Origin: Halanaerobium saccharolyticum
GTDB taxonomy: Bacteria > Bacillota > Halanaerobiia > Halanaerobiales > Halanaerobiaceae
Assembly (NCBI RefSeq): GCF_003053565.1
Contig: NZ_QAXS01000002.1
Location: forward strand, 62,001-126,000
DNA: 64,000 nt
Direction of reading: 5' to 3'
The notes beneath the pieces are model-generated. The model made no database searches. It was given only the letters and a program-made list of their open reading frames with translations, and was not told where the DNA came from. Below, one piece after another: positions 17,193-39,620 of the stretch. Numbering within the stretch: position 1 is the stretch's first letter; each line of letters begins with the position of its first letter. The translations under genes were made by a program, and so were the position numbers.

Positions 17193-17489
17193 AAGATAAA
17201 AGTTGTGAGAGGGAGGAAAGTAATTTCCAGTGATTACAGAGAATCGGGATAGCTGAGAACCGAGATCTAAAGAATTATTTTTGTAGCCCTTGAACTGCAG
17301 CTTTGAACAGAGTAGGAGCTGCCGGATTCCTGATTGGAAATGCATCCGTTATCTAGTGCAGAGGTATTGAGATTTATTAATTCAGTGCTTTAAGTGGCTG
17401 TTGAAACAGCAAGTTGGGTGGTACCGCGTGAGAGAACTCTCGTCCCGATTAATAGTTTAGCTATTAGTTGAGATGAGGGTTTTTTTAAT
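17193..17489 (+). ncRNA. T-box riboswitch upstream of ilvB
   Basis: tRNA-sensing leader that controls ilvB by antitermination. Stem I closes by AGATAA (17194-17199) with TTATCT (17349-17354). It has GTGAGAG and AGTA in the left arm, AGAGTAGG in the right arm, and the T-box sequence GGGTGGTACCGCG near 17415. A terminator helix follows (CTCGTCCC... / ...GATGAGGG plus seven T). In the specifier region, TTGAACTGCAG (17290-17300) allows CTG (Leu, 17295-17297). A shifted reading TGC (Cys) is possible, but Leu fits ilvB better. Confidence 0.9.
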
Positions 17490-23382: not shown

Positions 23383-23404
23383 ATAACTAGAAAATTGAAT
23401 ATAA

Positions 23405-23511
23405 CTAACGAGGATGGGTGAAATTCCCTACCGGTGGTAATAGTCCACAAGTCCATTTTGGATTGATCTGATGAAATGCAGAACCGACAGTAAAGTCTGG
23501 AAGGGAGTTAG
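23405..23511 (+). ncRNA. FMN riboswitch (RFN element)
   Basis: FMN-sensing aptamer upstream of ribD. P1 is CTAAC (23405-23409) with GTTAG (23507-23511). The conserved core is clear: GAGGATGGGTGAAATTCCC, TACCGGTGGTAATAGTCC, then GAACCGACAGTAAAGTCTGG and AAGGGAG. With the hairpin at 23607-23637 it should terminate transcription when FMN is plentiful. Confidence 0.96.
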
Positions 23512-23606
23512 ATTTTAAATTTATTAATCTAATTTATTTTGTAGATTTATGGCAGAATAAGTGAAGTTTTTAGCTGTTGATAGATTTAAATTAAAAAATG
23601 ACTATT

Positions 23607-26895: not shown

Positions 26896-27360
26896 ATGAA
26901 GACAATCGAAGGAAAACTGAATGCACAGGGAATGAAGACAGCAATTGTAGTTGGGCGTTTTAATGAATTTATTTCCGGTAAATTACTGGAAGGTGCAGTT
27001 GATGCCTTAAAAAGACATGGAATGGATGAGGCAGATATTGATGTTGTCTGGGTGCCGGGAGCATTTGAGATTCCGCTAACTGCAAAGAAACTTGCAGTTA
27101 AAGAAGAATATGACGGTGTAATTGCCCTGGGTGCAGTTATTAGAGGAGAAACTCCTCATTTTGATTATGTATCAGCAGAGGTTTCAAAAGGGGTTGCTAA
27201 AGCAGGTCTGGATACTGAAAAGCCGGTTATTTTCGGAGTTCTGACAACAGATACAATTGAACAGGCTATTTCTAGAGCCGGTACAAAATCCGGAAATAAA
27301 GGTTATGATGCTGCTGTTTCTCTGATTGAGATGGTTAACCTTTTTCAGGAACTTGAATAA
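26896..27360 (+). CDS. ribH: 6,7-dimethyl-8-ribityllumazine synthase
   Basis: Lumazine synthase, the penultimate step of riboflavin synthesis; 154 residues forming a capsid-like assembly. Motifs: [40 protein letters not shown] and [11 protein letters not shown]. The long open frame extends back into ribBA, but ATG 26896 with AAAAGGAG upstream gives the usual length, so I take that start. Last gene of the operon; a terminator follows. Confidence 0.96.
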
Positions 27361-27388
27361 AAATACTATTTAAAAAACCACTAATTAT

Positions 27389-27433
27389 AAATCCTCGTCA
27401 GTAAATTTTTAGATTTCCTGAGGAGGATTTTTT
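27389..27433 (+). terminator. Terminator of the riboflavin operon
   Basis: Stem AATCCTCGTCAG with CTGAGGAGGATT, followed by a T-run. Confidence 0.88.
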
Positions 27434-27474
27434 CAACTGTTTTAATTTATGCCTTAAATTAAGTCGGTTTTTAA

Positions 27475-27503
27475 TTGATTTAAATCATAAAATTAGGTAT
27501 ACT
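27475..27503 (+). promoter_or_regulatory. Promoter of the GGDEF-EAL gene
   Basis: TTGATT (27475-27480), 17 bases, TATACT (27498-27503). It lies 37 bases before ATG 27540 and supports that ATG as the true start. Confidence 0.6.
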
Positions 27504-27539
27504 ATTAATTAACTAATACTAATATTGAAGGCAGGTCAA

Positions 27540-29269
27540 ATGATAACAACACAATCTTTGAATATTTTTTAAGGGATGAAATTAAGAAAATTAAAATTAG
27601 TGATTATATAAACAATAAAATTCTAATTTCATTTAACATTTTCTATATTTTTTCTGCAGTTTTTTTGATACTCAGTAATTCAGCAAATTTAAGCAGTCTA
27701 AAATTTTCATCGGCAACAATTAGAGGAATAATTGTTCAGCTGCAGATTATTTTACTGCTTTCCCTGACAATCAAATATGCTCTAAAAGGCTTTGTTTCAG
27801 CTTTAATACTGAATGTGTTCTCAATCTTTTCGGTACTGACATTAATGATCGTTGGCAGTTCTATCTCATTTTTACCGGCTTTAATTGCTTATTTAACAGT
27901 CCTAATAATTCTGTATTTAATTTTTGTTTACCAGCGGGAAATAAGCTTAAAAATTAATCAGCTGAAAAAGGAAAAGAAAAAATTACATTACATGGCTTAT
28001 TATGATAATCTAACAGAAATAGCCAATAGAGAAATGTTAATTGAGAGGCTTGATTATCTTTCCTCAATGTCAGAGGCTGAAAAAATTAATTATAAGTTGA
28101 TTTTTATTGATTTTAAAAATTTCAAAAAAATAAATGATTCCTGGGGTTATGAAACCGGAGACTATATTCTGCAGGAAATAGCTTTTAGACTCCAGAAAAT
28201 TGTTGATGAAAATGATCTTTCGGCTCGTCTTGGTGGTGATGAGTTTGCAGTTGTAGTTCAGCGTGAACTGGAAGCAGAGGAATTGAAAAGATATATCAGG
28301 AAAATAAAAAGAGAACTGGAAAGAACTTATAAATATGATCAGAAAGAAATTACATTAAGCAGTAATTTCGGTATTTCAGCTTATCCAGAAGATGGTCAAA
28401 ACAGCAAAGAAATGATAAGAAGTGCTGATATAGCAATCTATAAGGCCAAACAGAGCCTTAATAAAGAAATAGAGTTTTTTGCTAAAAATATGGAGAAAGA
28501 TGTTATCGCTGGTGTACAGATGGAAGATTCTCTAAAAAGAGCAGTAAAAAACGAGGAATTTCATTTAGTCTTTCAACCACAGTATAAAATTGATGGCGAA
28601 AAACTGAGGGGTTTTGAAACTTTAATCAGATGGCATTCACCTGAACAGGGAACAATTAGCCCGGCCCGCTTTATTCCGGCTGCTGAAAAGACTGGTTTAA
28701 TTAAGGAGATTGGAGAATGGGTTATCAGGACTTCGATTAGGAAATTTAAGCTTTTAGAAGAGAAATTTAAAGAAATCCCGGTTCTTTCAATCAACATTTC
28801 TGTTGTTCAGCTGACTGATCCTGGTTTTGTAGCAGCAGTTAAAAAAATTATAGATGAAGAAAAAATTAAAGGCTTTAAACTGGAATTTGAGATTACTGAG
28901 TCACTTTTTATATCTGATCAGGAATATGTTATAGATGTTTTATATAAATTAAAAGAGCTGGGGATCAGTATTGCGATGGATGATTTTGGAACCGGTTATG
29001 CTTCTCTAAGTTATCTGCAGCATATTCCACTTGATGTTATAAAAATTGATAAGGCTTTTATTGATCTAATTTCTCAGAATCCAGCAAGTGAAAAAATGAT
29101 GGTTCCACCAATTATTGAGATGGCTCAGCAGTGGGGAATCAAGGTTGTAGCTGAAGGAGTGGAAACAGTTGAGCAGCTGCATTATTTAGAAGATCATAAT
29201 TGTGATTATCTGCAGGGGTTTCTTCTAAATAAACCCTTAAGTGAATACCAGATATCAAAAGTATTTTAA
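27540..29269 (+). CDS. Membrane GGDEF-EAL protein with a frameshift at codon 10
   Basis: Cyclic-di-GMP protein: several membrane helices, then GGDEF (motif GGDEF intact, preceded by DEND instead of an RxxD inhibitory site) and EAL (ETLIRW, MDDFGTGYASLSYL, VVAEGVET). The downstream frame is open from 27509 but has no ATG or plausible start until TTG 27665, inside a membrane helix. ATG 27540, with promoter and AAGGCAGG site, is in another frame and stops at 27570. One extra T in the T6 run at 27565-27570 would join both and add about 41 residues. So this is a one-base loss, a slippery site or a sequencing error. Confidence 0.8.
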
Positions 29270-31808: not shown

Positions 31809-31835
31809 ATATATGCCTGAATTAAGGATGGTTTG

Positions 31836-33374
31836 ATGCAGAAACCTATTTTTTTCTCAAATAAATATTATCTGATGACTCTAATTCTGGTAATTATAGT
31901 TTTTGTAGTGTTTATATTATTTAGTTATACTGAAAAAACAGAAGAGGAACAGTTCTTTTTAAATCGAAGTTTAGAAAGACTTAATTCTGAAGTAGAGGTA
32001 ATCTTAAATACCTATAACATTGCAGCTGATGCTGTTTTCAACAATATTCTTGACAGTGAGAAGATCAAAAGGATAATATATTATGGCTGGGAGTTTGAAG
32101 ATCGCCGGGATAACTACCGCCACTACCTACAGGCAGAGCTGGAGCCCTTATATGAGGATTTGAAAAGATATCATGTCCGGCAGCTGCACATACATTTTAA
32201 AGATGGCAGCAGTTTTTTGCGAATGCACCGCCCAGAAACCTATGGTGATAATCTATTTGACGTCAGAGATAGTATTAAATATGTCAATACAGAAGAAAGA
32301 AAATTTGTAGGCTTCGAAGAGGGCCGTATTTTTAATGGTTACCGCTATATTTATCCTTTAAATTACAATGGTGAACACCTGGCTTCAGTTGAATTCAGCC
32401 TTTCTTTTCAGGCGGTTACAGAGCTGTTAAAGGATAATTTTGGTGGAGCAAATGCCTTTATAATTAAGAATGAGCTGATAGAAGAGACTGTATTTAAAGA
32501 AGAACAGTCGAATTATCTAAACTCTTCAATTATTCCAGAATACAGTTATGATAAAGAAATTTATAATAACCTGCTCAAAGCTGAGAGTGAGGTAAATCTT
32601 AATATTATCAGGGAAATTAATCGAAAAAACCAAAAAGAACTGGCTGCTCAAACTGCTGCAGAAAATTCTTTTGTAGTTTCCAGTCGAGTTGACGGCAGCT
32701 ACTATACCGGCAGTTTTATCAATATTAAGGGGATAGATGGAAAAACCAAAGCCTATTTAATCAGCTATCAGGAGAATGATTCACTTAACTTTATCAATCA
32801 AAATTTCTTTACGACAATTATTATATCTATGATATTTTTGATTTTGACTATTATTCTACTGACTATAATTTTTTCCAGCAACAGCAGGCTCAGATTTTTA
32901 GCCCACAATGATCAGCTGACCGGGGTAAGCAACCGCCATCATCTGACTGAGGTTCTGGAAAGAGAATATGACCGCAGCCGCAGATATAATAATTCTTTTT
33001 CTTTGATTATTTTTGATATTGACCACTTTAAAAGTATTAATGATAATTTCGGCCATGATCAGGGAGACTTCATTCTAAAAGAACTGAGCAGACTGGTAAA
33101 GAAAAACATCCGTAAAAGTGACTATTTTGGCCGCTGGGGAGGAGAAGAATTTATAGTTATTGCTCCGGAGAGCAGTCTTCAGGATGCCGAAAAGTTTGCC
33201 GAAAAATTGAGAAAAGAAATTGAAGAATATAACTTTATGGAAAAGCGTAAGGTAACAGCCAGTTTTGGAGCTGCAGAAATTAAGAATGGTGATAATATTG
33301 ATCAACTGATTAAAAGGGCAGATGACGCTCTCTACAGAGCAAAAGAAAAAGGAAGAAATAGAGTTGAAGTTTAA
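31836..33374 (+). CDS. Membrane sensor diguanylate cyclase
   Basis: About 512 residues. Helix 1 (about 8-30) and helix 2 (about 325-350) flank a large extracytoplasmic sensor resembling dCache/double-sensor domains. The GGDEF domain follows, with motif GGEEF, an RKSD inhibitory site five residues before it, and NDQLTGVSNRHHL at its start. It should be an active, product-inhibited cyclase responding to an external ligand. ATG 31836 is preferred to TTG 31833, given AAGGATGG upstream. A terminator follows. Confidence 0.88.
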   Translation: MQKPIFFSNKYYLMTLILVIIVFVVFILFSYTEKTEEEQFFLNRSLERLNSEVEVILNTYNIAADAVFNNILDSEKIKRIIYYGWEFEDRRDNYRHYLQAELEPLYEDLKRYHVRQLHIHFKDGSSFLRMHRPETYGDNLFDVRDSIKYVNTEERKFVGFEEGRIFNGYRYIYPLNYNGEHLASVEFSLSFQAVTELLKDNFGGANAFIIKNELIEETVFKEEQSNYLNSSIIPEYSYDKEIYNNLLKAESEVNLNIIREINRKNQKELAAQTAAENSFVVSSRVDGSYYTGSFINIKGIDGKTKAYLISYQENDSLNFINQNFFTTIIISMIFLILTIILLTIIFSSNSRLRFLAHNDQLTGVSNRHHLTEVLEREYDRSRRYNNSFSLIIFDIDHFKSINDNFGHDQGDFILKELSRLVKKNIRKSDYFGRWGGEEFIVIAPESSLQDAEKFAEKLRKEIEEYNFMEKRKVTASFGAAEIKNGDNIDQLIKRADDALYRAKEKGRNRVEV

Positions 33375-37950: not shown

Positions 37951-39620
37951 ATTAAAAGGCCTGAAATATATAAAAAGCTGAAATTGTTTGAAGACAGAAC
38001 CCTGCTTTCAATTTTTGTGATTTTATGTCTTGCTGTTTTAGTTGCTTTCATTGTTTATTTTACTGGTGGAACCCGCTTTAGTTATGCCCATTTAATCTAC
38101 CTGCCAATTATTTTGGCTGCTTATTTTTATAAAATAAAGGGAGGAATAACTGCTGCATTAATTGGAGGATTTCTACTGGGACCTTATATGCCGCTTAATA
38201 CCAGTACTATGACAATGCAGGGTTTGGAAAACTGGACTTTTAGAATGTCTCTACTGGTTATAGTTGGAACTTTTGCCGGATATTTATTTTCTCTGCTCGA
38301 AAGTCAGCTTGAGCAGGTAAATCAAATTGCTTATTATGACTCTGAAACAGGACTGCCCAATAAGTTAAAATTAAAAAAAGAACTGGAAAAAGAGATTGAG
38401 GCTGAAAATGATTTCTATTTATTAATCTTAAGCATCAATAATTTTATTGATATTTATAAGATGATTGGCTTTATGAACTTTTCTAACTATATCAAAAAAT
38501 TACTGCAGTATATAAAAGACTTTGAAAAGATTAGAGACCAAATTTATTATATTAATGAAAGTAAATATGGGCTTATTTTAAAAAAAGAAGCAGATTTATC
38601 AATCTTTCTTAGTCAATTTGTAGAATACATGGATCATGCTGTTGAGTTTAATCAGATTTCTATTTTTAATGATATCAGTCTGGGGATTACAGCTTATCCT
38701 GAACAGAGTCAGATAGCAGATGAGCTTATTGATCAGGCCTTTATATCTCTGGAAAAAGCAGCTACCAAAAAACTTCAGTACTGTGGCAGTATCAGGAGCA
38801 GGACAGCAGCTTTAAAGAGAGTAATATTGGATTATTAGCTGATATTAATAAATCAATCTTAAATGATGATTTTGAACTTTATTATCAGCCAAAGGTAAAT
38901 CTGCTTGACAAAAGTGTAGAAACATTTGAGGCCCTAATCAGATGGAATCATCCAGAGAGAGGCTTTATCTCACCTGCTGAATTTATTCCTCTAGTTGAGC
39001 AGAGCAGTCTGATTGAACCACTGACTGAATGGGTGGTCAAAAGGGCTTTAAATGACATTAATAAGTTTAACCAGAAAAATGAAGATGAAAAATATTCAAT
39101 TGCAGTCAATATTTCTGCCCGAAATCTGCAGCATCCAAACTTTGCAGAAAGCTTAATTCAAAATTTGGAGTTTTTTAATATCAATCCAGAAAGATTAAGC
39201 CTTGAAATAACAGAGACAGATTTGATTTTAGAAATTAAAGAAAATATCAAAAAGCTAAAAAAGCTTAAGGCAAAGGGAATCAAGATTTATCTTGATGATT
39301 TTGGCAAGGGTTATTCATCTTTAAAATACCTAAAAGAACTGCCGGTGGATTATTTGAAAATAGACCGGTATTTTATTAAAAACATTGGTCTGGAAAAATC
39401 TACAGAAAATATTATTCATTCAATTATAAATATGGCCCACGCTCTTAATTTAAAAGTAGTTGCAGAGGGAGTAGAAAAAAAGGAGCAGCTTGAATTTTTG
39501 CAGGAACTGGACTGTGATTATGCTCAGGGTTATTATTTTGCCAGACCGGATACTAAAGAAAATATTATAAAAAAGCTGGCAGAAGAAGATAAATATATTT
39601 TAAACAGTATTGATAATTAA
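37951..39620 (+). pseudogene. Membrane degenerate-GGDEF / EAL protein, frameshifted
   Basis: Two halves of one gene. The first frame (through 38838) has membrane helices and a GGDEF-like domain lacking the signature: ESKYG stands where GGDEF should be. The second frame, open before 38870, encodes a full EAL domain (DDFELYYQPKVNL, FEALIRW, LDDFGKGYSSL, VVAEGVEK) and ends at 39620. One extra base between about 38765 and 38810, for instance in the A6 run at 38767-38772, would join them. The start is also unclear: AGGGGG is followed by ATA/ATT (37948/37951) and no ATG; TTG 37984 is the next option. It could be decay, programmed shifting or an assembly error. Confidence 0.75.

Follow-up and report, generated by a model that had tools for sequence, protein, structure and literature searches.

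A gene for a GGDEF-EAL protein is broken out of frame close to its start in the window, the 64,000-nucleotide stretch of Halanaerobium saccharolyticum DNA that was analysed here, and the break is absent from all five full-length orthologues found in the genus. Probably one base was lost, or an equivalent indel arose, directly behind the start of the gene, recently and in this lineage alone. Ribosomes initiating at ATG 27540 would then halt after 10 codons, and little or no full-length enzyme would be made, leaving a loss-of-function or near-null allele. If so, one c-di-GMP enzyme has been lost in a strain that keeps several; the genome contains nine EAL matches, eight of them above the curated cut-off, and the remaining EAL genes could cover the loss.

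Layout of the gene and its start region

As the sequence-only reading had stated, the frame of ATG 27540 ends after 10 codons, at TAA 27570-27572, which was confirmed from the letters. The long frame that follows is listed as an ORF of 534 aa at 27665..29269 on the forward strand, beginning at a TTG. It is open from 27509, and TTG 27665 is the sole ATG, GTG or TTG among its codons from 27509 to 27720. No ribosome-site match was found upstream of this TTG, and the strongest first hydrophobic stretch of 19 residues corresponds to 27620-27676, which places the TTG inside the first predicted helix. The codon scan and the hydrophobicity profile thus bear out the further statement of that reading, that the long frame has no plausible start before 27665 and that this start falls within a membrane helix. 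Other starts were considered and set aside: upstream of 27581 the long frame offers only ATT 27524, which has no ribosome site, and ATC 27554, which lacks a convincing one; ATG 27576 belongs by its position to the short frame. The 534-aa annotation beginning at TTG 27665 is not to be trusted, whether the cause is a mutation or an error.

Downstream of the break the gene is intact, with 564 codons from 27575 to 29266 and not a single stop. Against the Pfam families, the long frame scores 137.5 bits for GGDEF and 245 bits for EAL, well over the respective cut-offs of 23.8 and 31.3, and its translation contains the letters GGDEF. Its predicted product is a membrane-anchored GGDEF-EAL hybrid of the c-di-GMP cyclase/phosphodiesterase type. 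The features of the locus are collected in Table 1; the promoter-like stretch at 27475-27503 is mostly conserved in the six-sequence alignment of the window with its orthologues, and ribosome sites were scored against an anti-SD string.

Table 1. Features around the start of the GGDEF-EAL gene (positions in the window)
Feature	Position	Strand	Basis or remark
Promoter-like TTGATT and TATACT, 17-base spacer	27475-27480 and 27498-27503	+	Read from letters; predicted
Possible ribosome site (AAGG), 8 bases ahead of ATG 27540	27528..27531	+	Anti-SD scoring
10-codon frame with TAA, in the start frame of the orthologues	27540..27572	+	Letters, alignment
Run of six T (T6)	27565..27570	+	Equal length in G005 and G004; alignment gap just 5'
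Segment between break and first ATG/GTG/TTG; coding-like, most of helix 1	27573..27664	+	
Possible fallback start at in-frame ATT 27581, with AAGG (27571-27574) six bases ahead of it	27571..27583	+	Speculative
Long frame, free of internal stops: GGDEF and EAL domains, some four predicted membrane helices	27575..29269	+	

Several other elements were observed in the neighbourhood. An FMN riboswitch lies directly 5' of the rib genes that precede the locus, and a T-box leader is also present (window 23400-23516 and 17196-17450, respectively). Two further genes of c-di-GMP type lie near the locus: a dCache_3-GGDEF gene (window 31833-33374) and a 295-aa frame with an EAL match (window 38841-39548). 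Between 33491 and 33844, open frames are conserved on both strands relative to G005, the nearest orthologue-bearing genome; either strand may be the coding one, or the segment may be of another nature, and no Rfam match at the gathering threshold was found in it.

Intact orthologues and the nature of the change

Eleven other Halanaerobium genomes, one per species, were searched, and full-length orthologues were found in five: G005 (80% identity), G004 (75%), G009 (66%), G006 (64%) and G011 (60%). In all five, a single frame runs from an ATG, through the equivalent of 27573-27664, to the end of the gene, and each ATG is preceded by a ribosome-like site, the best-scoring site lying 11-12 bases before the ATG versus 8 in the window. 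The frame is thus broken in the window against five intact relatives, as is expected of a frameshift pseudogene. Among the matches listed for five other genomes, all were below 40% identity. The remaining genome, G003, is very closely related (99% across residues 475-586, and 92% at the DNA level over window 27300-27461), and its assembly has a gap at the break, with contigs C226 (at its end) and C130 (at its start) terminating on either side. That the assembly is interrupted around this gene perhaps reflects a strain mixture there. A named-genome scan returned three loci, one a near-identical C-terminal fragment only (100% over the last 111 residues) and two distant.

In the six-sequence alignment the window lacks one column, and the aligner places the gap just 5' of the T run; gap placement beside a homopolymer is always ambiguous, and a lost T is possible. 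The column that holds the orthologues' ATG reads ATA (27543) in the window, and ATG 27540 is the in-frame codon directly 5' of it. This ATG would be a replacement start that keeps the frame, and the frame break a separate change. The sequence-only reading had proposed that one added T joins the two frames and restores a natural N-terminus. The orthologues sustain the part of this proposal that concerns a single gene with a complete first helix (five of five), and do not sustain the T run as the cause, as the two nearest of them, G005 and G004, are in frame with a T6 of their own.

The same comparison bears on the suggestion that the tract is phase-variable, the enzyme being switched on and off by replication slippage. 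The run does lie near the 5' end of the gene, a position that would make switching effective, and c-di-GMP enzymes can be phase-variable by other means, as in the inversion at pdcB/pdcC of C. difficile described in an excerpt of PMC9286219. The frame difference, however, does not track run length: G005 and G004 are in frame with T6, G006 is in frame with a run of seven T in the first 60 bases, and G009 has no long run at all (longest T run five in the first 60 bases). Nor is T6 an unusually long tract. Runs of at least six T number 77 on the forward strand of the window, against a mean of 79.12 (range 62-106) in 50 first-order Markov sequences, which is chance frequency. Phase variation was accordingly dropped as the leading explanation, and we regard it as highly improbable. 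In the literature searches, no listed title or displayed abstract dealt with slippage or phase variation of a GGDEF-EAL gene in Halanaerobium, which is a weak negative.

Age of the break and the background rate of frame breaks

The stretch that now lies out of frame with the start still looks like coding sequence. Over the 30 codons before TTG 27665, 19 residues are identical between the window and G005, and the differences fall mostly on synonymous sites (pS 0.663, pN 0.165), much as they do in the membrane part; the corresponding values are 0.714 and 0.195 for the membrane part and 0.598 and 0.082 for the GGDEF-EAL part. Between G004 and G005, the pre-TTG segment has pN 0.277 on pS 0.469, indicating weaker constraint. 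When G004 is used as the outgroup, the window keeps 12/30, 51/98 and 359/436 residues in the pre-TTG, membrane and GGDEF-EAL parts, and G005 keeps 14/30, 59/98 and 357/436; with G009 as the outgroup, the counts for the same parts are 14, 50 and 307 in the window and 11, 54 and 304 in G005. The membrane part thus has a slight excess of change in the window against both outgroups, and the GGDEF-EAL part appears to evolve no faster than in the relatives, with no clear acceleration.

The coding-like character of the pre-TTG segment, the 564 stop-free codons and the lack of faster evolution together suggest that the break is recent, or that it is an error. Signs of further decay, in the form of stops or relaxed selection, were not found in the long frame, and their absence is compatible only with a very recent break. 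Its age is loosely bounded, since synonymous sites are near saturation and the pre-TTG comparison spans only 30 codons. The codon pattern itself would tell us that the gene was translated for most of its history, and nothing beyond that.

Next after a mutation, and as its main rival, comes a sequence or assembly error, in which case the organism's gene is intact and merely the annotated start at 27665 is wrong. Much of the evidence just given would suit it: the rest of the gene appears functional, the break adjoins a homopolymer, and it is a singleton, seen in none of the five readable orthologues. An excerpt of PMC3711429, whose data are complete genomes up to 2013, likewise expects single frameshift genes validated by BLASTp to be sequencing errors and not genuine indels. 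Against this, T6 is short for a homopolymer error, and frame breaks are few elsewhere. Of 56 G005 ORFs tested against the window, 39 had a listed match, and each of these aligned in a single frame. Comparing 463,094 bases of this genome with 720,000 of G005 gave one frame-changing pair in 132 G005 ORFs with a match of at least 65% identity, and the reverse direction flagged two in 129; breaks very near a start escape this comparison, which did not pick up the present gene. So low a number of frame breaks indicates that the assembly is good overall, which favours a true mutation. We therefore adopt the sequence-only reading's option of a real mutation as the best of those it had listed, on the condition that the assembly is correct at the break, and retain its option of a sequence error as a rather unlikely one.

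A second survey looked for conserved residues upstream of any possible start. Of 130 G005 ORFs, five had at least 12 conserved residues before any ATG, GTG or TTG: the present gene with 33, an HD-GYP gene with 21, and three ORFs with 14, 14 and 47. The last three overlap conserved ORFs on the opposite strand and are probably antisense frames, not genes. In the reverse direction, two of 124 were flagged in G005, and one further case was skipped at an edge. Both genomes thus hold a few N-terminal anomalies of this kind, which are rare without being unique.

The HD-GYP gene is an observation in its own right. It has an HD_5 match (114 bits; HD-GYP-like) and lies at L064:11843-12940, corresponding to 51843-52940 of contig C1 in G000. 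Its conserved frame has no ATG, GTG or TTG at the apparent start, where ATC is found in the window genome and G003, and ATT in G005, G004, G008, G001 and G011 (orthologous loci L098 and L100-L104). The ATC or ATT is followed by TCT and stands behind a ribosome-like site in all seven loci inspected, this genome counted. Alternative starts are a GTG before the site in G005 and an ATG about 17 codons downstream in six of the seven (CTA in G008), and conserved residues lie 5' of this downstream ATG. An AUU/AUC start conserved in this way, as it apparently is, would be unusual, and more so than the frame break.

Bypass of the break and comparison with known systems

Bypass of the break, whether by -1 ribosomal slippage on the T run ahead of the stop, by addition of a U during transcription, or by reinitiation at ATT 27581, might still allow the enzyme to be made with its first helix complete. 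We consider such bypass improbable, although it would matter more than a simple loss, as output of the c-di-GMP enzyme would then be tied to initiation stringency or slippage. The conserved remainder downstream would be accounted for, and AAGG 27571-27574, six bases before the in-frame ATT, occurs in the window only, being absent at the equivalent place in all five orthologues. The HD-GYP gene of the genus, which seemingly starts at ATT or ATC, hints that such starts may be usable here. For each of the three routes, however, there are points on the other side. The canonical -1 slippery site has the pattern X_XXY_YYZ, which the zero-frame codons AAT ATT TTT TAA do not fit, and the fold of the 91 bases downstream (27573-27663) is not unusual (z-score -0.51; 54 of 200 shuffles as stable). 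None of the five orthologues shows such an arrangement or needs a frameshift, and programmed -1 frameshifting was rejected on these grounds. Reinitiation at ATT 27581 would meet competition from the wrong-frame ATG 27576.

As for transcription, an excerpt of PMC1088944 states that A/T runs are evidently selected against at a length of nine bases in many of the genomes, a large proportion of them, and that some bacteria may slip on shorter runs. At six bases the present run falls below that figure of about nine or more, and nothing found favours slippage during transcription, another option of the sequence-only reading. A more specific form of reinitiation is a lineage switch from an AUG to a two-step start, made up of the 10-codon frame, its stop at 27572 and reinitiation at AUU 27581. 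Translation from this AUU, behind the newly arisen AAGG, would yield a slightly shorter enzyme that still spans the membrane fully, in amounts that depend on the stringency of initiation; this, too, is very improbable.

The probable one-base loss can be set beside three known systems. Like homopolymer phase-variable genes, the gene has a short homopolymer beside its break, early in the coding region, but six T is an ordinary length for a run, and orthologues that are in frame have one just as long. It also resembles singleton frameshift genes and recent pseudogenes of the kind treated in an excerpt of the GeneTack study (PMC3711429), in having one break that is unshared, intact homologues and Pfam domains; it differs from them in that it has no decay beyond the one break and may owe that break to an error. 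With membrane-anchored GGDEF-EAL proteins it shares both Pfam domains and a hydrophobic N-terminal part, whereas its start region is out of frame here and intact in the orthologues.
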